From Paenibacillus kribbensis (GTDB lineage: Bacteria > Bacillota > Bacilli > Paenibacillales > Paenibacillaceae): DNA of 64,000 nucleotides. The notes beneath the pieces were generated by a model. That model searched no databases, had not been told where the DNA came from, and saw nothing but the letters and a program-made list of their open reading frames with translations. A program made the translations under genes and the position numbers. Position 1 is the first letter of the stretch. Every line of letters begins with the position of its first letter. This document shows positions 12,968 through 62,282 of this stretch, piece by piece. The stretch spans positions 2,505,501 to 2,569,500 of the forward strand of contig NZ_CP020028.1 in NCBI RefSeq assembly GCF_002240415.1, written 5' to 3'.

Positions 12968-13064
12968 AATCAAAAAAATTCAGTTCTGTTATGCTTCACA
13001 AAAAGTGGGGGTTGCAGAATTAGAAAAATATGCTAAGCTATTTGTAGCTGATACAATATAATAG

Positions 13065-13160
13065 TCACACTAGGGGAGCCGCCCATGCGGCTGAGACGGA
13101 ATAAATGGATTTCGGACCCTTTGCACCTGATCTGGGTTATGCCAGCGTAGGGAAGTGAGC
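13065..13160 (+). promoter_or_regulatory. TPP (thi-box) riboswitch aptamer
   Basis: The conserved TPP-aptamer blocks occur in order: GGGGAGCC, CTGAGA (13091-13096), ACCCTTTGCACCTGATCTGG, and CCAGCGTAGGGAA. P1 can close as CACT (13068-13071) with AGTG (13154-13157). It precedes five thiazole-branch genes, as expected for feedback by thiamine pyrophosphate. Confidence 0.95.
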
Positions 13161-13260
13161 GCCGTACAAGCAAGGTAATCGCATCATTACTTTTGTTTGT
13201 GCGTGGGACGATATACGTATACGGATTTGATTGTCCGTTCGATTATTGGACGTTCGTGAA

Positions 13261-35021: not shown

Positions 35022-35027
35022 TTACTT

Positions 35028-35126
35028 ATTTCCCGTTAATCGTAAACACCTCGAAAGTGGTGGACACAAAGCCATGGGTCTAAAGCTGGATTCAACAGCC
35101 ATGATTGCCAGGTTCCCAAAGGAAAC
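35028..35126 (+). promoter_or_regulatory. Cyclic di-GMP class I (GEMM) riboswitch
   Basis: The hallmark order is present: GTAAAC, a hairpin capped by the GAAA tetraloop (CACCTC-GAAA-GTGGTG), GGACACAAAGCC, then ATGGGTCTAA and CATGATTGCCAGGTT. These correspond to GACGCAAAGCC, GGGUCUAA and AUGAuaGCCgGGUU of the GEMM-I consensus. The one clear deviation is ACACAAAGCC for ACGCAAAGCC. P1 can close with TTTCC (35028-35032) and GGAAA (35121-35125). A terminator follows and the next gene is the NRPS. Recognised by consensus memory, not by a covariance search. Confidence 0.85.
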
Positions 35127-35141
35127 TAGGTGAATTCTGCT

Positions 35142-35182
35142 GCCTGTTCCTGTGTTTTTTATATGGGGACAGGCTTCTTTTA
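35142..35182 (+). terminator. Expression-platform terminator between c-di-GMP switch and NRPS
   Basis: GCCTGTTCC (35142-35150) pairs with GGGACAGGC (35166-35174), then TTCTTTTATTT. The TTCC of the 5' arm can also pair with AGGAA (35120-35124), which belongs to the aptamer's closing stem, giving mutually exclusive folds. Confidence 0.75.
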
Positions 35183-35252
35183 TTTGTGATGGAAAGTCGT
35201 TTGGGCATATGGAGTAGAACGCATGAAATGCTTAACAACAGGAGGAAATTTT

Positions 35253-38200
35253 ATGAAAACGAGCATGATAACTATTAAGGAGTATCCGTTAAGCTCCTAT
35301 CAGAAAGACATATGGTTCGAACAGTGCATGTACCCTGAAAAACCTATTTACAATATTGGTGGGTATGTTGAGATCAAAGGAAACCTGGATACGGCTATCA
35401 TGAAGGAGTGCTTGCAGTTACTAATCAGCCAGAATGATTCTCTTAGTGCCCGTTTTATCGATAAAAAGGGAGAACCTTATTTAACATTCCTGCCGGAAGT
35501 TGAATATGAAGTTCCGCTATATAATTTCTCGATGAAGGAAAATGCAAATTCTTTTTGCATCGACTGGATGAAAAAGGAGTTTTTAAAGCCTTTTCAATCT
35601 GATAGCTTTTATTTTCAATTTGATTTATTGCAAGGCACCCTGAATACCTATTTTATTTTACTCAAAGTTCATCATTTGGTGATCGATGGATGGGGATTTG
35701 CTCTCTTAATCAATCAGCTCTTTGACAATTACAATAAACTCGCGCAAGGAATTGACGAAATGAACAGAACTGTCTATTCCTATGCTGATTTTATCTCCGA
35801 TAATCAGGATTATCTGAATTCTCCGGCCTTTTTAAAAGACAGGGAGTTCTGGAAGAACAAATACCAAACCATTCCCGAGCCTCTATTGAGCAGAGGAGTG
35901 AACTTCGATGATGGTGATTCCGCTTGGAGTGATCGGCAAACCTTAACGATAAACAAGACCTTATACAATCGAATGATTGAATTTTGCAAAGAGGAAGGGT
36001 GTTCGTCGTTCCATTACTTTTTAGGCATACTGTTCCTTTATTTCAGCAGGGTTTGTAATCGGAACGAGATGGTGATCGGCGTCCCGGTTTTTAACCGGGG
36101 CAAAGCGAGATATAAGCAAACGATGGGACATTTCGCCAACGTGCTGCCGCTGCGGATCAGCCCTGAAGAAGATCTAAGCTTTAAAGAGCTGATAAAGCGC
36201 ATCAAACGTGAGCTTATGCAATGCTACCGACATCAGAAAATGTCCTTCGGTGAAATTTACCGGGCAGTTTACGAGAATAGCCATGAGAAAGGAAAACTGT
36301 TTGATATATCGCTTTCTTTCGAAGAACAGGAAAACAGAGAATCATTGATCGGTACAGCAACCCAGATTGTAAGCATGCCGCATCATCATGAAAGGAATGC
36401 ACTTAATCTCTTTATATGGGGACAAGAAGGTAAAACGGATGTAGCCGTTAATTTTGACTATCAGATACAGGCTTTTGAAAGATTCATCCCTATTGAGAAT
36501 GTCGTTTCCCACTTTGAATATTTATTTGCTCAAGCCATGGAACAAAGTGAAACTCCTATTTCACAAATCGAAATCGTGCCGGAGGAAGAGGGCAGCCTGC
36601 TGCTTCGCGATTTCAATCGCACGGAGGCGGAGTATCCGAAGGATCAAACGATCCATGGACTGTTTGAGGAACGAGCGGAGCAAAGAGCAGATCATCCGGC
36701 TTTAGTCTGGGGAGAGCAAACACTGACCTACCGGGAACTGAACGAGCAGGCGAATCGGCTGGCCATCGTCTTGAGAGAGCGTGGAGTGAAGCCGGACGAT
36801 ATCGTTGCCATCATGATGGAGCGTTCCATGGAAATGGTCATCGGCATCCTGGGCACGCTCAAAGCGGGCGGAGCCTACCTGCCGATCGATCCGAACTATC
36901 CGGAGGAACGGATTCACTACATGCTGGAGGACAGCGGCGCGTCCATGCTGCTGACGCAAAAGCATCTTCGGGACAAGCTTACTTATCACGGCCCGATCAT
37001 GGATGTGGATGGCGAAGAGTTGAAGCATTTGGAACTGGATGGCCATGCCAATCTGCAACCTGTTAACAAGCCGGAGGATTTGGCCTATATCATCTATACC
37101 TCAGGCTCCACTGGGAAGCCCAAAGGGGTCATGGTAGAACACCGGGGAATCATCAACCTCTGGCGTTTCTTCCAGGAACAATGGGGCGTGAACGGATCGG
37201 ATCGGATGCTGCAGTTTGCCAGCAGTTCGTTTGACGCTTCGGTCTGGGAAATGTTCACGATTTTACTGGGAGGCGGAACGCTTTATCTGGTTTCGCGAGA
37301 TATTATTAATAACCTGAATGAGTTTGCGCGCTTTGTCAACGAAAACCAAATTACGATTGCATTGCTACCGCCTACCTATCTGGCGGGGATAGAACCCGAC
37401 AAGCTGCCGGCACTGAAAAAACTGGTGACAGGTGGATCAGCGATCACCAAAGAACTAGTGACGCGGTGGAAGGACAGCGTGGAGTATATGAATGCCTATG
37501 GTCCAAGCGAATCGAGCGTCATAGCAACGGCGTGGACGTACCGGGAAGAGGATATGGGGTACTCATCGGTACCGATTGGCAAACCCATTGCCAATACCCG
37601 GATTTATATTATGGATCAACAACAAAAGCTGCTGCCGCTTGGAGCAGCCGGGGAAATGTGCGTTGCGGGAGATGGATTGGCCCGGGGGTATCTGCACCGA
37701 CCGGAGCTGACGGCGGAGAAATTTGTGGTGAATCCCTATGAAGCTGGGGAGAAGCTGTACCGCACGGGCGATCTGGTGCGCTGGCTGCCGGACGGGAATA
37801 TCGAATTTTTGGGAAGAATCGACGATCAGGTGAAAATTCGAGGGTTCCGCATTGAGCTGGGGGAAATCGAAGCGCAGCTGCAAAAGCATCCGCTTGTCCA
37901 GGAGGTGGCGGTAATCGCCAGAGAGGACAAGCAGAAGGAAAAGTATCTGGCAGCGTATTTTACAGCAGAGGGTGAACCGGGAGCGGAAGAGCTGCGGGAA
38001 CAGCTGTTGCAGGAGCTGCCTGATTACATGGTGCCGTCCAGCTTTATGCAGCTGGATCGCATTCCGATGACTCCGAGCGGAAAGATTGACCGAAAGGCGT
38101 TGCCTGAGCCCGATCTGAGTGTGAGTGCAGTGGAGGAATATGAGGCACCGAGAAACAAGATAGAGAAGATATTGGCTGAAATATGGGGAAAAGTCCTGAA

Positions 38201-41200
38201 AGTCGAACGGGTCGGCATTAAGGATCACTTTCTCAATCTGGGGGGAGATTCCATTAAAGCCATCCAGATCGTGTCCAAGCTTCATGATTACAAGCTAAAG
38301 TTGCAGTTGAAGGATCTTTTTGACCATCCTGTAATTGAGCAATTGAGTGCTTATGTACAATCTGTCGAGCATACTGCTTTTCAAGGAATGGTAACAGGGG
38401 AAATGATGCTCACGCCTATCCAAAGCTGGTTTTTCGAGCAGCCTTTTGCAGCAAAACATCACTTCAACCAGTCAGTTCTGTTACATCGGAAACAGGGTTT
38501 TGACGAAAAGAGGTTAAGAAAAGTGTTCGACCGCTTGGTGGAGCACCATGATGCGCTGCGTATTGTAGTGCGCGAGAAGGCGGGACAGGTTGCTTTGTTC
38601 AACCGGGACATGGAAGGCGAGCTATATTCACTGGAGGTAAAGGATTTTACAAAGGATGATATAAATGCCAATGCGGTAAAGGAGGAAGCCATCCGGCTTC
38701 AGTCAGGCATGGATTTAGAGCGTGGACCTCTGATGCATGCAGGCTTGTTCAAAACGGGGGACGGTGACTATCTGTGCGTAAGTATTCACCACCTGGTGGT
38801 CGACGGGATTTCTTGGCGGATTCTTTTTGAGGATCTTTCTACGGGATACCGGCAGGCGGAAAAGGGAGAAAAAATCACATTCAGAGGGAAAACGGACTCT
38901 TTCCGCACATGGTCTGAACAACTTTATACGTATGCCGGCAGCGGGGAGCTTCTGCAAGAAATCACATATTGGCGTGAGCTGGAGCAGAATGAAATCAAGC
39001 CTATTCCCAAGGATCATTCCGTTCATAGCAGAAAATATATGGATAGCGACCATATCGAAATCGAACTGGATGAAGTCCAAACCGCCAAGCTGCTGAGAGA
39101 AGTGAATAAGGCTTACAATACGGAAATCAACGATGTTCTTTTGATGGCACTGGGAGAGGCGATTCGAGAATGGACAGGAGAAGACAAGGTACTTGTTAAC
39201 CTGGAGGGGCATGGACGCGAAGAAATCATTCAGGATGTGGATATCAGCAGAACCGTTGGCTGGTTTACCGCCCAATACCCTGTGATTTTGGATATGTCAG
39301 GTGTCAAAGACGTGTCTTCCCGCCTGAAATCCGTCAAAGAAAGCCTCCGGCGTATTCCGCATAAAGGCATCGGCTATGGCATTTTAAAATACCAAACGAT
39401 TGTTCAGGACGAAGAAATCTTAAAATTTAAATTGCGGCCTGAGATCAGCTTCAACTACCTGGGGCAGTTTGACCAGGATATCGATACCGAAATATTTACC
39501 CTCTCTGATGTTCTTGCCGATGAGACCATTTCACCTGACATGCAGAGACCCTATTGCCTGGATATTAACGGAAAAGTGACTGATGGAAAACTACGGCTGA
39601 GTTTTGCCTATCACAAGCACGAATATGAAAAGGCCACGCTGATCAGAGTAGGGGAAAGCTTTAAGCGCAATCTGGAGCAAATTATTGAGCATTGCGCATC
39701 ACGGGAATATACGGAACTGACAGCCAGTGATGTGAGTTCCAGACACATTATGATGGAGGAGGTAGAAGAGGTATACCGCGCGATGGGGGATTCCAGGTCC
39801 AATATCACGGATATTTATACACTGACCCCTATGCAGTCGGGAATGCTATACCACTTCCTCAGAGAGCAAAACTCACATGCGTATTTTGAGCAGGCCGTGA
39901 TCAGTCTGCAGGGTGAGATCGATAGAAGTTTGCTTGAGCGAGCTTTCCAGCAGGTAATTCAAAGGCACGATATTTTGCGGACCGCCTTTGTTTATGAAAA
40001 GGTGGAAAAACCGCTTCAGGTCGTTTTAAAGGACAGACCGGCTGAAATGTTTTTCGAGTATATTTCCTTCTTGACAGAGAGAGAGAAAGAAAACTATTTT
40101 GAAGCCTATTTGGACAAGGACAGAGAAAAGGGCTTTGATCTCACCCGGGAGCCGCTAATCAGATTCGCTTTGATTAGAATGAGTGCCGACAGCTACCGTT
40201 TGATTTGGAGTTTTCATCATATCATTATGGATGGATGGTGTCTTGGCATTGTATTTAAAGAACTACTGGAAGTTTACAGTGCGCTTCATCAAGGAAGCAT
40301 ACCGCAATTAGGTACGGTGCATCCATATCGTCAATATATCCAGTGGCTAGAACAAAGGGATGATCGGGAGACGGCGGCTTACTGGGAGAATTATCTTACG
40401 GAGTACGAACAGCCGGCGCTGCTGCCCAAAACCAAAAATAGTAAGGCTAGTTCGGGATACATTCAGGAGGAATACGATTTTACGATAAATAGGGACATGA
40501 AGGAAAGTTTAGAGGGGATTGCAAGAGAAAGCGGCGCTACGTTAAGTACGGTGATTCAGGCCGTATGGGGGATTTTGCTGCAACGCTACAACAATACCCG
40601 GGATGTGGTGTTCGGGACGGTTGTCTCGGGAAGACCGGCGGAAATCCAAGGCGTTGAACGGATGGTAGGGTTATTTATCAATACGATTCCTGTCAGAGTC
40701 CGGGCAGAAAAGGAAGAAAGCTTCTCTGCCCTGGTTGCCAAACTCCAGCGGGAGGCATGGCTATCTGAGCAGCATCACTATTATCCGCTGGCGGAAATTC
40801 AGTCGCGGACCGCTCATGGAAGCGGATTGGTGCAAAACCTGCTGGCCTTTGAAAATTACCCGATGGAGGAAGCCGTCAAAGGACAGGGCGACTACGGACC
40901 GGATTTGAGGGTTCTGTCCGCAAAGGTCTCCGAACAGACGAGTTTTGATTTTAATTTCATTGTTATGCCTGAACATGATTTGCAGATCAAATTCCGCTAC
41001 AATAGCTTGGCCTATGACAGAAACTTTATAGAGCGGGTAGCCGGGCAGATCCAAATGATCATCCGTGAAATCGTCCGTTGTCCAAAGATGCGGATCGAAG
41101 ATATCGAAATCGTACCGGAGGAAGAGGGTAGCCTGCTGCTTCACGATTTCAATCGCACAGAGGCGGAGTATCCGAAGGATCAAACGATTAACGCTTTGTT

Positions 41201-44174
41201 TGAGGAACGAGCGGAGCAAAGAGCAGATCATCCGGCTTTAGTCTGGGGAGAGCAAACACTGACCTACCGGGAACTGAACGAGCAGGCGAATCGGCTGGCC
41301 AAGGTCTTGAGAGCGCGCGGAGTGAAGGCGGACGATATCGTTGCCATCATGACGGAGCGTTCCATGGAAATGGTCATCGGCATCCTGGGAACGCTCAAAG
41401 CGGGCGGAGCCTACCTGCCGATCGATCCGAACTATCCGGAGGAACGGATTCACTACATGCTGGAGGACAGCGGCGCGTCCATGCTGCTGACGCAAAAGCA
41501 TCTTCGGGACAAGCTCACTTATCACGGCCCGATCATGGATGTGGATGGCGAAGACTTAAAGCATTTGGAACTGGATGGCCATGCCAATCTGCAACCTGCT
41601 AACAAGCCGGAGGATTTGGCCTATATTATCTATACCTCAGGTTCCACTGGGAAGCCCAAAGGGGTCATGGTAGAACACCGGGGAATCATCAACCTCTGGC
41701 ATTTCTTCCAGGAACAATGGGGCGTGAACGGATCGGATCGGATGCTGCAGTTTGCCAGCAGTTCGTTTGACGCTTCGGTCTGGGAAATGTTCACGATTTT
41801 ACTGGGAGGCGGAACGCTTTATCTGGTTTCGCGAGATATTATTAATAACCTGAATGAGTTTGCGCGCTTTGTCAACGAAAACCAGATTACGATTGCGCTG
41901 CTACCGCCTACCTATTTGGCGGGAATAGAACCGGAGAAGCTGCCGGCACTGAAAAAACTGGTGACGGGTGGATCGGCGATCACGAAAGAACTGGTGACAC
42001 GCTGGAAGGACAGCGTGGAGTATATGAACGCCTATGGTCCAAGCGAATCGAGCGTCATAGCAACGGCGTGGACGTACCGGGAAGAGGATATGGGGTACTC
42101 ATCGGTACCGATTGGCAAACCCATTGCCAATACCCGAATTTACATTATGGATGAACATCAAAAGCTGCTGCCGCTTGGAGCAGCCGGGGAAATGTGCGTT
42201 GCGGGAGATGGATTGGCCCGGGGGTATCTGCACCGACCGGAGCTGACGGCGGAGAAATTTGTGGTGAATCCCTATGAAGCTGGGGAGAAGCTGTACCGCA
42301 CGGGCGATCTGGTGCGCTGGCTGCCGGACGGGAATATCGAATTTTTGGGAAGAATCGACGATCAGGTGAAAATTCGAGGGTTCCGCATTGAGCTGGGGGA
42401 AATCGAAGCGCAGCTGCAAAAGCATCCGCTTGTCCAGGAGGTGGCGGTAATCGCCAGAGAGGACAAGCAGAAGGAAAAGTATCTGGCAGCGTATATTACA
42501 GCAGAAGGCGAACCGGAAGCGGAAGAACTGCGGGAACAGCTGTTGCAGGAGCTGCCTGATTACATGGTGCCGTCCAGCTTTATGCAGCTGGAACACATGC
42601 CGATGACTCCGAGCGGAAAGATTGACCGAAAGGCGTTGCCTGAGCCTGAATGGCAGGGGAGCGACGATACATTTAGCAGCCCAAGAAATGACATTGATCT
42701 GAAAATCCAGAAGGTATGGCAGGATATTCTCGGTATGAAACTGATCGGCATTGATGAGCATTTCTTCAGACTGGGCGGCAATTCGATCAAGGCAATTCAG
42801 GTGGTTTCAAGGCTGGCGCTGGATTTTGAAGTGGGTATTAACGACATTTTTCAATATCCGACGATTCGGGGCTTGGCGGATCACATCAAATATTCCAAAG
42901 GCAGATTACAACAATTCGTATACGCCCTGCAGGAAGCAGCAGCTGTCGGAAAAAGTGGCGTACCTGGTGTTGTATGGAAATTGCGCGAGAGTCTCAAGGA
43001 ATATGGCAAGAAAAATCAGGTATATGAAAGCATCAATCTTGCTGAACGGGCTGATTACCGAAATATTCTGCTGGTTGGAGGGACAGGGTATCTCGGGATC
43101 CATATTTTGTTTCAATTGCTGCAAAATACGGAATATGAGGTGTATGTGCCTGTTCGGGGAACGAGCGACGAAGAGGCACTGGAAAGACTGCGGGCGAAGC
43201 TGAAGTTTCATTTTGGCCATGAGCTTGCCGGGCAGAATGCCTGGGAGGACAGGGTGCACGTGTTCTGCGGAGATTTAACCCAGGACTGCTTTGGCCTGAG
43301 CCGGGAGCGCTATGAGCGTTTGGCCGAAATCATTGATGCGATCATTAATTCGGCGGCAAACGTGAAGCATTTTGGGCATTACTCGGAATTTTATGCCGTC
43401 AATGTGGAAGGGAACGAACGAGTGATCGAATTTGCCAGCACAGGGAAGAAAAAGACCTACAATTTTGTTTCTACCACCAGCGTAGGCAGCGGATGGATAG
43501 AAGATCAGAACAGCTTCGTGTTCACTGAATATGATTGCAATGTTGGACAAAGCTCTGATAACTATTATGTTATGACGAAACTCGAAGCCGAGAAAGAGAT
43601 TATTAAAGCAAGGGAACAAGGGCTTGATTCCAATGTATTCAGAGTCGGAAACCTCGTTTTTGATTCCAATTCAGGGATCTTCCAGGAAAATATCTCGGAC
43701 AATGCATTTTATTCATTGGTCAAGTCGATGATCAAACTTGGTCGGGTTCCTGCAATTCAAGATAAAACCATGAATTTCTCCTTTGTGGATGAGGTTGCCA
43801 AAGCTGTTGTACTGCTGTTCGACCGCAAAAATCTCAAGAATGAAACCTATCATCTATTTAATAGCCATCAGGTTAGCATGATATCCTTTGCCAAGCTTTT
43901 GAAGCAGGCGGATATACAAGTTCAGCCGATGCCAGTGGAGGATTTTGCCGAATACATGTTTGAAAAATACGATGAAGCACAGACGCAGCAGGAGGTTGCC
44001 CGGATTCTTGTTCATTCCAACGTCTTCTTTGAGGGAGCAAGCAAAACGTTGTTCATGACAATGAACAAGAAGACCGACGGTATTTTGCAGGCGCTAGGGT
44101 TTGAATGGTCCAGGCTGGATGGTCAAAAAGTGAAGCTGATGATGGATCATGTCAAAAAGGTAGAGTTCATGTAA
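35253..44174 (+). CDS. Dimodular NRPS with terminal reductase (C-A-PCP-E-C-A-PCP-R)
   Basis: 2973 residues from ATG 35253, after AGGAGG. Domains in order are: condensation (H140-H141...D145); adenylation A1 (YTSGSTGKPKG from residue 615, first specificity Asp661); carrier (LGGDSIKA, Ser1000); epimerisation (HHLVVDG at 1179, EGHGRE near 1318, VGWFTAQYP); condensation (HHIIMDG at 1655); A2; carrier (LGGNSIKA, Ser2511); and NAD(P)H thioester reductase (GGTGYLG at 2609, Tyr2772-VMT-Lys2776). Both A domains read D-A-W-L-V-G-A-V-I-K by alignment to GrsA, suggesting one large hydrophobic residue used twice. With no upstream module, the first C domain is probably an acyl-starter. Predicted product: N-acyl D,L-dipeptide aldehyde or alcohol. 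Confidence 0.93.
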   Translation: MKTSMITIKEYPLSSYQKDIWFEQCMYPEKPIYNIGGYVEIKGNLDTAIMKECLQLLISQNDSLSARFIDKKGEPYLTFLPEVEYEVPLYNFSMKENANSFCIDWMKKEFLKPFQSDSFYFQFDLLQGTLNTYFILLKVHHLVIDGWGFALLINQLFDNYNKLAQGIDEMNRTVYSYADFISDNQDYLNSPAFLKDREFWKNKYQTIPEPLLSRGVNFDDGDSAWSDRQTLTINKTLYNRMIEFCKEEGCSSFHYFLGILFLYFSRVCNRNEMVIGVPVFNRGKARYKQTMGHFANVLPLRISPEEDLSFKELIKRIKRELMQCYRHQKMSFGEIYRAVYENSHEKGKLFDISLSFEEQENRESLIGTATQIVSMPHHHERNALNLFIWGQEGKTDVAVNFDYQIQAFERFIPIENVVSHFEYLFAQAMEQSETPISQIEIVPEEEGSLLLRDFNRTEAEYPKDQTIHGLFEERAEQRADHPALVWGEQTLTYRELNEQANRLAIVLRERGVKPDDIVAIMMERSMEMVIGILGTLKAGGAYLPIDPNYPEERIHYMLEDSGASMLLTQKHLRDKLTYHGPIMDVDGEELKHLELDGHANLQPVNKPEDLAYIIYTSGSTGKPKGVMVEHRGIINLWRFFQEQWGVNGSDRMLQFASSSFDASVWEMFTILLGGGTLYLVSRDIINNLNEFARFVNENQITIALLPPTYLAGIEPDKLPALKKLVTGGSAITKELVTRWKDSVEYMNAYGPSESSVIATAWTYREEDMGYSSVPIGKPIANTRIYIMDQQQKLLPLGAAGEMCVAGDGLARGYLHRPELTAEKFVVNPYEAGEKLYRTGDLVRWLPDGNIEFLGRIDDQVKIRGFRIELGEIEAQLQKHPLVQEVAVIAREDKQKEKYLAAYFTAEGEPGAEELREQLLQELPDYMVPSSFMQLDRIPMTPSGKIDRKALPEPDLSVSAVEEYEAPRNKIEKILAEIWGKVLKVERVGIKDHFLNLGGDSIKAIQIVSKLHDYKLKLQLKDLFDHPVIEQLSAYVQSVEHTAFQGMVTGEMMLTPIQSWFFEQPFAAKHHFNQSVLLHRKQGFDEKRLRKVFDRLVEHHDALRIVVREKAGQVALFNRDMEGELYSLEVKDFTKDDINANAVKEEAIRLQSGMDLERGPLMHAGLFKTGDGDYLCVSIHHLVVDGISWRILFEDLSTGYRQAEKGEKITFRGKTDSFRTWSEQLYTYAGSGELLQEITYWRELEQNEIKPIPKDHSVHSRKYMDSDHIEIELDEVQTAKLLREVNKAYNTEINDVLLMALGEAIREWTGEDKVLVNLEGHGREEIIQDVDISRTVGWFTAQYPVILDMSGVKDVSSRLKSVKESLRRIPHKGIGYGILKYQTIVQDEEILKFKLRPEISFNYLGQFDQDIDTEIFTLSDVLADETISPDMQRPYCLDINGKVTDGKLRLSFAYHKHEYEKATLIRVGESFKRNLEQIIEHCASREYTELTASDVSSRHIMMEEVEEVYRAMGDSRSNITDIYTLTPMQSGMLYHFLREQNSHAYFEQAVISLQGEIDRSLLERAFQQVIQRHDILRTAFVYEKVEKPLQVVLKDRPAEMFFEYISFLTEREKENYFEAYLDKDREKGFDLTREPLIRFALIRMSADSYRLIWSFHHIIMDGWCLGIVFKELLEVYSALHQGSIPQLGTVHPYRQYIQWLEQRDDRETAAYWENYLTEYEQPALLPKTKNSKASSGYIQEEYDFTINRDMKESLEGIARESGATLSTVIQAVWGILLQRYNNTRDVVFGTVVSGRPAEIQGVERMVGLFINTIPVRVRAEKEESFSALVAKLQREAWLSEQHHYYPLAEIQSRTAHGSGLVQNLLAFENYPMEEAVKGQGDYGPDLRVLSAKVSEQTSFDFNFIVMPEHDLQIKFRYNSLAYDRNFIERVAGQIQMIIREIVRCPKMRIEDIEIVPEEEGSLLLHDFNRTEAEYPKDQTINALFEERAEQRADHPALVWGEQTLTYRELNEQANRLAKVLRARGVKADDIVAIMTERSMEMVIGILGTLKAGGAYLPIDPNYPEERIHYMLEDSGASMLLTQKHLRDKLTYHGPIMDVDGEDLKHLELDGHANLQPANKPEDLAYIIYTSGSTGKPKGVMVEHRGIINLWHFFQEQWGVNGSDRMLQFASSSFDASVWEMFTILLGGGTLYLVSRDIINNLNEFARFVNENQITIALLPPTYLAGIEPEKLPALKKLVTGGSAITKELVTRWKDSVEYMNAYGPSESSVIATAWTYREEDMGYSSVPIGKPIANTRIYIMDEHQKLLPLGAAGEMCVAGDGLARGYLHRPELTAEKFVVNPYEAGEKLYRTGDLVRWLPDGNIEFLGRIDDQVKIRGFRIELGEIEAQLQKHPLVQEVAVIAREDKQKEKYLAAYITAEGEPEAEELREQLLQELPDYMVPSSFMQLEHMPMTPSGKIDRKALPEPEWQGSDDTFSSPRNDIDLKIQKVWQDILGMKLIGIDEHFFRLGGNSIKAIQVVSRLALDFEVGINDIFQYPTIRGLADHIKYSKGRLQQFVYALQEAAAVGKSGVPGVVWKLRESLKEYGKKNQVYESINLAERADYRNILLVGGTGYLGIHILFQLLQNTEYEVYVPVRGTSDEEALERLRAKLKFHFGHELAGQNAWEDRVHVFCGDLTQDCFGLSRERYERLAEIIDAIINSAANVKHFGHYSEFYAVNVEGNERVIEFASTGKKKTYNFVSTTSVGSGWIEDQNSFVFTEYDCNVGQSSDNYYVMTKLEAEKEIIKAREQGLDSNVFRVGNLVFDSNSGIFQENISDNAFYSLVKSMIKLGRVPAIQDKTMNFSFVDEVAKAVVLLFDRKNLKNETYHLFNSHQVSMISFAKLLKQADIQVQPMPVEDFAEYMFEKYDEAQTQQEVARILVHSNVFFEGASKTLFMTMNKKTDGILQALGFEWSRLDGQKVKLMMDHVKKVEFM
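36570..38110 (+). repeat. A-domain direct repeat, copy 1
   Basis: About 1541 bp covering A1 of the NRPS that recur at 36570 + 4536 with only scattered base differences. Identity begins abruptly at GAAATCGT and ends at the GCCTGAGCC after the A10 motif. Confidence 0.92.
41106..42646 (+). repeat. A-domain direct repeat, copy 2
   Basis: Second copy, covering A2. The specificity-determining region is identical to copy 1 at the protein level. Flanking C, E and carrier domains are not duplicated at this level, so the unit exchanged was the adenylation domain itself. Confidence 0.92.
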
Positions 44175-44199: not shown

Positions 44200-45498
44200 A
44201 TGGACGCCATTAAACTGGCAAGCACTTACTTTTTCGGAACGGAAGATTATCTTTCATCCAACAGCATGATCGCAACGGTTACTTTTAAAAGAAGAATCGA
44301 CGCTGAAAAATTGTTTTCCAGCTACCGTTTGCTTATCATGGACAATCCATTGCTGCAAGCCAAAAGGGTGGAACAGTTCGAAAAAGACACGTTTGTATGG
44401 GGATGTTTTTCGCAGGAAGAGCTGGAAAATTTGCTGGAGACTGAAAAGGTGCAGCTTTCCCAATATTTTACGGAAGAAGAGGCACTGGCCCAGTATGCTC
44501 CAACCAATTCCAGACTGCCATTTCGCATTATCCCTATAAATGAACATACCATGATATTTGCGATGAACCATGCGGTAACTAATGGACGGGGCTTGGTTTT
44601 CTGGATCAAGAGATGGTTGGAATATTATGCGGGCGAATCTGAGGCGAAGCCGGAAAAGGAGGCAGCAAAGGGAGACATCCCCGGAGACAAGCTGTTGCGT
44701 ATGAAAAGAAGAGTTTCCGCTTTTTTATGGATGCCGGTTTTTATTACAGGCTTTATATCCAGGGTTATGGGAAAAAGGACAAGCGCTGGCGAAACCGTTG
44801 ATTTGAGCTACGGCAGAAAACCGGAGCAAGGCGGTGGCTACATTAAAAAATCGTACTGTTTCAGTAAAGAAGAGACAGCTGAGATTTTACGGCAATGCCG
44901 GAGCAAAAAAATGACATTGACCGAATACATTTGCTTTCGAACGACCGATGGACTACTGCAACATGCTCCTGGCATGCAGCGCGTATTTGTCTCCATGCCT
45001 ATGGATTTGCAGTTGCTGCTTGACTATTCGCCGGAAACGATGCACGGCAATTACGTCGCCAGTCTTCCGATGCAATTTTTCCGGAACGTGAATTTGGAAA
45101 AACAGGTGAAATCCGCATTCAAATGGTTCAAAAGGGGGGTTCCCTATGCACTGTCGATCTTTTTTTCTTCGTTTTCCAATTCATATCGGAAATATAAACA
45201 ACAGTGCCTTGAATTGTGTATGAAAACAATGCCTGAAAGATTCCCACTGTGGAATTTTTCCATCACCTTGTCCAATGTGGGTATTATATCGTATCCGATT
45301 ATGGAGGAATGGGTGGATACGATCTATTTTTCCATCAAAAACCAGTCGTTACTGCTCACAACCGCTACGCTTTCGGGACGTTTAATGATGGAAGTCAGCG
45401 TATTGGAGAATATGTATGATTCAGAAGAGGTCTTTGGTCTTTTTGACCACATTTTATCTGTGGAACATTTGATGAATGGTTATACCCCTGTCAAGTAA
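44200..45498 (+). CDS. Condensation-like acyltransferase accompanying the NRPS
   Basis: 432 residues, ATG 44200 with GGAGAGGAGGG upstream and only 25 bp after the NRPS stop, so one operon. Its fold resembles chloramphenicol-acetyltransferase/condensation proteins: RRIDAEKLFSSYRLLIMDNPLL at the N-terminus, an active-site-like MNHAVTNGRGL (His124, Asn128), and FSITLSNVGII in place of the second-half latch. The canonical HHxxxDG has become NHAVTNG: one His kept, Asp replaced by Asn. Relatives include alcohol acetyltransferases and stand-alone condensation proteins. If the NRPS releases an alcohol, this enzyme could esterify it; it might instead supply or transfer the starter acyl group. Both roles are inference. 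Confidence 0.7.
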   Translation: MDAIKLASTYFFGTEDYLSSNSMIATVTFKRRIDAEKLFSSYRLLIMDNPLLQAKRVEQFEKDTFVWGCFSQEELENLLETEKVQLSQYFTEEEALAQYAPTNSRLPFRIIPINEHTMIFAMNHAVTNGRGLVFWIKRWLEYYAGESEAKPEKEAAKGDIPGDKLLRMKRRVSAFLWMPVFITGFISRVMGKRTSAGETVDLSYGRKPEQGGGYIKKSYCFSKEETAEILRQCRSKKMTLTEYICFRTTDGLLQHAPGMQRVFVSMPMDLQLLLDYSPETMHGNYVASLPMQFFRNVNLEKQVKSAFKWFKRGVPYALSIFFSSFSNSYRKYKQQCLELCMKTMPERFPLWNFSITLSNVGIISYPIMEEWVDTIYFSIKNQSLLLTTATLSGRLMMEVSVLENMYDSEEVFGLFDHILSVEHLMNGYTPVK

Positions 45499-62069: not shown

Positions 62070-62262
62070 TGCCGGGCCAGCATAAAGCTCATGATATACG
62101 CCGAATGCTTGGACCAAAACTATGGGAAGTGCGGGGGACGTAACAACGGCAGTCATTCCGATTCGTCATAAGACGGATAGGATTGGAAGCTGCCTAGGGG
62201 TGAATTGCACAAGCATAGGGCTTCTCCTGAGTCCGAATCCGACAGCTAACTTCGCAGGCATA
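62070..62262 (+). promoter_or_regulatory. Cyclic di-AMP (ydaO/yuaA) riboswitch
   Basis: The blocks of this large aptamer are present: CGCCGAAT (62100-62106), GCGGGGGACG (62131-62140), AGGGGTGAATTGCAC (62196-62210), and TCCGAATCCGACAGCTAACTTCGCAGGC (from 62232). These correspond to the GGGGTGAATC and CCGAATCCGTCAGCTAACCTCGTAGGC signature of ydaO motifs. It precedes a wall-lytic protein gene, a classic target of this riboswitch. Exact 5' boundary uncertain. Confidence 0.92.
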
Positions 62263-62282
62263 ACAGAGGAGGTACATATCTT

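Follow-up and report, generated by a model that had tools for sequence, protein, structure and literature searches.

The leader of a non-ribosomal peptide synthetase (NRPS) gene in the stretch of the Paenibacillus kribbensis genome analysed here (64,000 nucleotides, referred to as the window) was initially annotated as a c-di-GMP class I (GEMM-I) riboswitch with its own terminator. This raises the question of whether a second messenger gates peptide synthesis directly, and if so, which ligand is read by the RNA and in which direction it switches. The window leader is a real riboswitch with an unusual, conserved target, and the reading favoured here, with modest assurance, is that a transcriptional GEMM-I riboswitch of a C20 subclass senses c-di-GMP and acts as an OFF switch on a two-gene NRPS operon. 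If this is true, the sessile/motile second messenger gates a small, reductively released peptide directly, through RNA alone, and the metabolite of the NRPS operon gains a testable on/off condition.

Aptamer, terminator and NRPS operon

The RF01051 covariance model matches positions 35031-35120 of the forward strand over its complete length (model 1-87) with 71.3 bits and an E value of 5.4e-12 (cmscan), above the gathering score of 35 bits, which confirms the annotated class. All of the GEMM-I blocks quoted in that annotation are present in the sequence, and GGAAA at 35121-35125 is able to pair with TTTCC at 35029-35033 as it described. The ligand contacts are retained in the RF01051 alignment, where C35116 corresponds to C92 and A35068 to A47. 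The features of the locus are as follows.

35022-35033, forward strand: 5' strand of P1 by folding, of which TTTCC at 35029-35033 pairs with GGAAA
35031-35120, forward strand: c-di-GMP-I (GEMM-I) aptamer by the RF01051 covariance model
35041, forward strand: C at the Vc2 G20 position, the ligand-selectivity base (RF01051 model position 11)
35043-35066, forward strand: compensated pair U35043-A35066, which explains ACACAAAG (RF01051 model positions 13 and 36)
35116-35117, forward strand: C92/C93 equivalents, kept, by the RF01051 and sister-leader alignments
35121-35133, forward strand: 3' strand of P1, GGAAA-C-UAGGUGA, by folding; its GGAA doubles as the 5' half of the candidate GGAA/UUCC antiterminator
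35142-35184, forward strand: intrinsic terminator, a 14-pair hairpin at 35142-35174 with a T-rich tail, by shuffle test and leader alignment
35240-35245, forward strand: ribosome binding site AGGAGG, read from the sequence, with small changes in aligned relatives
35253-44174, forward strand: NRPS of 2973 amino acids, C-A-T-E-C-A-T-R, by Pfam and motifs
44200-45498, forward strand: partner gene of 432 amino acids and unassigned family, 25 nt after the NRPS, and beside the NRPS in relatives whose contigs reach it

The deviation ACACAAAG, which had been flagged for checking, turned out to be compensated, as model pair 13-36 (Vc2 22-45) is C-G in the model and U35043-A35066 in the window; ACACAAAGCC is thus half of a U-A pair and is ruled out as a defect. 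The hairpin and T-tract annotated after the aptamer also hold, as the segment 35139-35184 has a folding energy of -21.2 kcal/mol, whereas its shuffles average -7.45 (z = -7.5, none of 200 shuffles as good), and this terminator lies between the aptamer and the gene and is kept in all eight aligned leaders, the aptamer-less one included. The NRPS starts, as had been read, with the ATG at 35253, behind AGGAGG and about 70 nt past the T-tract, and an alternative in-frame start at 35223 was set aside because both the AGGAGG site and the orthologous genes point to 35253. The same window also carries a TPP riboswitch (13062-13170, forward strand, 77.8 bits) and a c-di-AMP riboswitch (62102-62275, forward strand, 63.6 bits).

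The first C domain of the window NRPS was found in 8 of 75 genomes of the genus (E 1e-60 or better), and an aptamer stands 130-133 nt upstream of the ATG in six of these eight, and these six are the only aptamers of this type in the 88 genus matches. The same leader is present in Paenibacillus maysiensis, P. ottowii and P. terrae. Beyond the genus, the same aptamer (71.0 bits) and the same terminator precede an NRPS of P. macerans with 74% identity over the first 1036 residues, which is a one-module C-A-T-R protein of 1468 amino acids in that assembly. The aptamer is conserved before orthologous NRPS genes. In one of the two exceptions, G060 (85% identity), the aptamer has been lost, with no match before the NRPS, and the terminator is retained (L065, G060:C1:3022693 onwards). 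In the other, G022 (67% identity), neither an aptamer match nor a counterpart of the terminator was seen in the 1.5 kb examined. Aptamer-less, terminator-only and retuned leaders in close relatives form a natural comparative series. The frame around the first C domain is short in G061 (458 amino acids), in G062 (587 amino acids) and, at a contig end, in G018 (517 amino acids), which indicates that the NRPS gene is interrupted or mis-assembled in G061 and G062.

The operon is expected to make an N-capped dipeptide that would be released as an aldehyde or alcohol. Both A domains show the specificity code D-A-W-T-V-G-A-V-I-K, read by eye at positions that we take to be the code-forming ones, and it presumably resembles codes for hydrophobic or aromatic residues. 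The assignment of the E domain likewise rests on a motif that we assume to be diagnostic. The A domains (36573-38132 and 41103-42662) share 96.7% DNA identity over 1538 bp, a likeness of the kind left by a recent duplication or a gene conversion. The 432-residue partner has no relative in Pfam, NCBIfam or PDB; its HAVTNG stretch recalls what we take to be a degenerate HHxxxDG motif of the condensation/acyltransferase fold. The partner was found in four of the six loci searched (68-86% identity) and in P. macerans (71%), and the two loci without a match (L070, L156) represent the same contig start, which cuts the NRPS off.

GEMM-I aptamers precede NRPS genes in three settings in Paenibacillus, of which the window-type leaders are one. 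P. piri carries a C20 aptamer (64.5 bits) before a large NRPS line with two or more proteins (3639 and at least 2785 amino acids), and G030, G031, G047 and G065 each combine an ordinary G20 aptamer and its own terminator-like hairpin with an NRPS A domain that lies about 2.6 kb further on. In G030, the sole annotated genome of these four, a chemoreceptor gene comes after the aptamer, and then one for a 1236-residue A-T-R protein whose C domain is partial (L090, L268). No description of GEMM-I control of NRPS genes was found in the literature searched, which covers few subscription papers.

The selectivity base and the ligand

A larger deviation than ACACAAAG, which was absent from the initial annotation, is C35041 at model position 11. 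This position adjoins model pair 12-37, which is G21-C46 by the Vc2 sequence and the contact list in PMC7288161, so that position 11 corresponds to Vc2 G20. The window aptamer is therefore outside the characterised G20 (c-di-GMP) and A20 (cGAMP, GEMM-Ib) subclasses by their defining base, and represents a widespread C20 form. According to PMC9262584, the G20 position is a selectivity factor and no hard filter, and mutation of its Cd1 equivalent neither abolished nor enhanced c-di-GMP binding. A ligand-binding measurement for a C20 GEMM-I was not found in the literature searched. The C20 form poses the question of which ligand is read, and why G, C and A occur at this site and U was not found.

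Of the 88 RF01051 matches in the 75 genus genomes, 60 carry G at the selectivity position, 21 carry C and 7 carry A, and none carries U. The 21 C20 matches consist of the six NRPS leaders of this type, all of which carry C20, as does that of P. macerans, and of 15 copies of a second conserved element. The latter (L106; G000:C1:4308061-4308141 in the window's genome) occurs in 15 genus genomes with an altered P1b base and precedes a GH26/PA14 protein in the window's genome. In 295 genomes of the family, searches for the core motif, which count pattern matches rather than individually vetted aptamers (at least one C20 match, in G320, looks doubtful), found G20 in 219 genomes, C20 in 47, A20 in 43 and U20 in none, and a backwards-pattern control gave zero, bar one genome in the G20 search. 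Among the matches listed, 55 belong to the C20 core and 51 to the A20 core. In GTDB species genomes, the C20 core occurs in at least 119 stretches and at least 130 sites, with hosts among the matches listed in Bacillota, Chloroflexota, Omnitrophota, Elusimicrobia, Proteobacteria and others.

A model trained on G20 aptamers only (R1) matches in 112 of the 119 C20 loci among the matches listed, a count read from tables in which the match may at some loci belong to a neighbouring aptamer, and no R1 match was seen in L135, L175, L182, L204, L220, L233 and L235. The training set of R1 comprised 24 of the 49 distinct G20 aptamers. Because its RNAalifold structure is poor, R1 serves as a mostly sequence-based check of GEMM-I likeness. 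Decay was rejected as the cause of C20, since every NRPS leader of this type carries it and it is common elsewhere, with U20 in none of the 295 genomes. C20 is a natural subclass of GEMM-I.

The host genome, a single 5.78-Mb contig, holds five GEMM-I matches, of which the window leader scores highest. A tandem pair in this genome, both members of which are G20, lies upstream of genes for a transglutaminase and a collagen-binding adhesin, and the fifth match, L114 (G000:C1:2750784-2750869, 53 bits), has no clear target gene and one short ORF, an integrase-core fragment, in its vicinity. In six polymyxa-group genomes (L078, L081, L083, L084, L087, L088), a tandem pair with G20 first and A20 second forms a possible mixed c-di-GMP/cGAMP gate.

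C-di-GMP appears to be the likeliest ligand of the window aptamer, because the genes behind C20 aptamers include those for adhesins, sortases, chemoreceptors and canonical diguanylate cyclases. Among the matches listed, 119 distinct downstream proteins fall into 59 clusters, some of which carry no annotation and the others a name taken from one representative each. The biggest comprise 24 choice-of-anchor-A LPXTG adhesins and 11 putative sortases, followed by 6 RuvB, 5 NRPS and 5 subtilases, and, with three members each, GGDEF proteins, LamG proteins, chemoreceptors, PapD-like chaperones and sortases. This census took the longest ORF starting within 900 nt, which misses some true first genes, and 6 of 130 sites had no ORF in it. 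RuvB, the third largest cluster, has no obvious fit to a c-di-GMP regulon; the ruvB genes with a C20 aptamer in front come from six records of Anaerolineales or related lineages (L133, L151, L154, L158, L170, L196). Of the direct c-di-GMP gate that was initially proposed, the aptamer class, the terminator, the position before an NRPS and the conservation before orthologues are supported, and the ligand becomes a prediction, as the base at the G20 position is C.

A competing proposal as regards the ligand is that C20 constitutes a third GEMM-I specificity class that favours adenine and senses 3',3'-cGAMP or several cyclic dinucleotides, which we regard as doubtful. The edge pattern of C is that of A, with an amino donor next to a ring-nitrogen acceptor, and U, which differs, was not found at this site in the 295 family genomes. 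Among the matches listed, 123 of 128 distinct C20 contexts have A or U at position 19, while 13 of 51 G20 contexts have C there, the C20 set in this comparison being enriched by the core-pattern scan. Furthermore, G20A GEMM-I RNAs are able to bind cGAMP, as stated in PMC7288161, PMC11352751 and PMC6274999. However, the usual c-di-GMP gene types lie under C20 aptamers, and the three GGDEF proteins among them carry the canonical Asp at the site where Hypr enzymes have Ser or Thr, as given in PMC6456294. The window genome has 10 GGDEF and 2 EAL matches, and the Hypr Ser/Thr is found in none of its eight classifiable GGDEF proteins (7 Asp, 1 Asn; the other two were unclassified). In addition, the C20 loci listed contain 34 pairs of adjacent aptamers, of which 16 join C20 with G20 and 3 join it with A20, the remainder being C20 with C20 (9) and G20 with G20 (6). 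An extended form of this proposal, in which a third natural class reading different or broader cyclic dinucleotides is common in Paenibacillaceae and also represented in further phyla, and in which GEMM-I switches of both the C20 and the ordinary kind were recruited more than once in Paenibacillus to gate NRPS operons, is offered tentatively, as rather unlikely.

Switching and the private changes of the window copy

With c-di-GMP as the most likely ligand, C92, which is retained, would read one guanine, and C20 would touch the other in place of G20. Binding would close the aptamer and P1 (35029-35033 with 35121-35125), which would keep GGAAA and the P3 strand off the 5' arm of the terminator. 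At high ligand, the terminator hairpin (35142-35174) would form and the NRPS would be OFF, whereas at low ligand the upstream RNA would hold the terminator arm and transcription would read on. The OFF polarity is likely, because the terminator is wholly downstream of the aptamer and would be free to form when the ligand is bound.

In the initial annotation, GGAAA could either close the aptamer or pair with TTCC inside the terminator arm, which was taken as a complete switch, a claim that finds modest support. The best fold of the 146-nt intermediate of the window does contain AGGAA/UUCCU, extended by UAGG/CCU, yet by a slim margin (-30.8 versus about -30.2 kcal/mol). According to folding, the polymyxa-group sisters prefer another antiterminator, in which the P3 3' strand and the terminator 5' arm pair around a GCCAGGUU/AACCGGGC hairpin, and neither fold is clear in the P. 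macerans leader. In free folding, the terminator 5' arm is paired upstream in seven of seven leaders before the 3' arm emerges (mean probability 0.66-0.75), and with the aptamer locked this pairing falls to 0.06 in the window and to 0.33-0.58 in the other leaders. Shuffled linkers (200 for each of the seven leaders, standard pairs only) sequester the arm nearly as often, with an average pairing of 0.55-0.61 and 14-46% of shuffles reaching the observed value. Earlier aptamer-constrained energies are approximate, since the six forced P1b pairs included one U-U mismatch. An antiterminator that is mutually exclusive with the aptamer is thus weakly predicted, and its exact pairing may be one of the two candidates.

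The window copy differs from its relatives around the 3' end of the aptamer. Two positions that flank C92/C93, 35115 (C, G in the sisters) and 35118 (A, G in the sisters), are private with respect to six sister leaders, as are changes within the ten bases after GGAAAC, and one P3-loop base differs from the polymyxa-group sisters. P1 of the window has 12 pairs at -9.7 kcal/mol, an extension found in the window only, compared to -2.8 to -5.0 kcal/mol in the six sister leaders, and the anti-aptamer hairpin reaches -8.6 kcal/mol, compared to -12.3 to -17.0 in the polymyxa-group sisters and -3.3 in P. macerans. Both the longer P1 and the weaker hairpin push toward the aptamer/terminator state relative to close relatives, and therefore the window switch is probably biased toward OFF.

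Three rival explanations of the locus were considered. The private changes are the sole point in favour of a chance match or a non-functional relic, which is barely credible given the E value of 5e-12 for RF01051 and an aptamer that is almost invariant from the window species to P. macerans, while the NRPS falls to 74% identity over its first 1036 residues. A drifting or locked copy, which would terminate by default with little or no response to the ligand while the sisters still switch, is a minor possibility to which the clustering of the private changes at the aptamer 3' end, the stable P1 and the weakened anti-aptamer hairpin all lend some weight, as does G060, which has a terminator and no aptamer. 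On the other hand, C92, A47, P1b, P2 and the terminator are intact in the window, the NRPS frame is open, and P. macerans, with a 3' end that follows the consensus, has a still weaker hairpin. Finally, in an ON switch the ligand would block terminator formation, which is improbable here. GEMM-I switches of both signs exist, according to PMC9262584, and the terminator of the tandem pair of the host appears by eye to overlap its aptamer. In the window, however, the aptamer ends at 35120 and the terminator hairpin starts at 35142, so no base is shared and ON polarity through such an overlap is ruled out; moreover, in each of the seven leaders folded, the terminator arm is released when the aptamer is locked.

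From the combined evidence, we infer c-di-GMP as the ligand, the OFF polarity and the antiterminator. What weighs against the c-di-GMP-sensing OFF switch is a selectivity base that is neither the G of c-di-GMP aptamers nor the A of cGAMP aptamers, the proportion of shuffled linkers that reach the observed arm sequestration, the weak anti-aptamer hairpin of P. macerans, the missing aptamer in two orthologues (G060, G022) and the window changes beside C92/C93.

Comparison with known systems

The closest characterised relatives are the Vc2 and Cd1 c-di-GMP-I riboswitches, with which the window leader shares a match to the whole covariance model, the GAAA-capped P1b, the A47 and C92 equivalents and a downstream terminator; it differs from them in the C at Vc2 G20 and in its target, an NRPS operon. 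The cGAMP riboswitch (GEMM-Ib) is built on the same scaffold and is altered at the same selectivity base, but the base of the window is C rather than A, and no Hypr cyclase was found among the classifiable GGDEF proteins (8 of 10) of its genome. Switches of the Bc1/Bc2 type in the Bacillus cereus group likewise carry both a GEMM-I aptamer and an intrinsic terminator and belong to Gram-positive hosts, but Bc2 reportedly controls a collagen adhesion protein and the window leader an NRPS. With regard to the enzyme, the window NRPS resembles AusA (NCBIfam aureusimine synthetase, the nearest model for a reductase-terminated NRPS) in its two modules and terminal NAD_binding_4 reductase, with a score of 1521.8 bits that lies below the model cut-off of 2500 bits, and departs from it by an extra N-terminal C domain, an E-like domain and the 432-residue partner gene.
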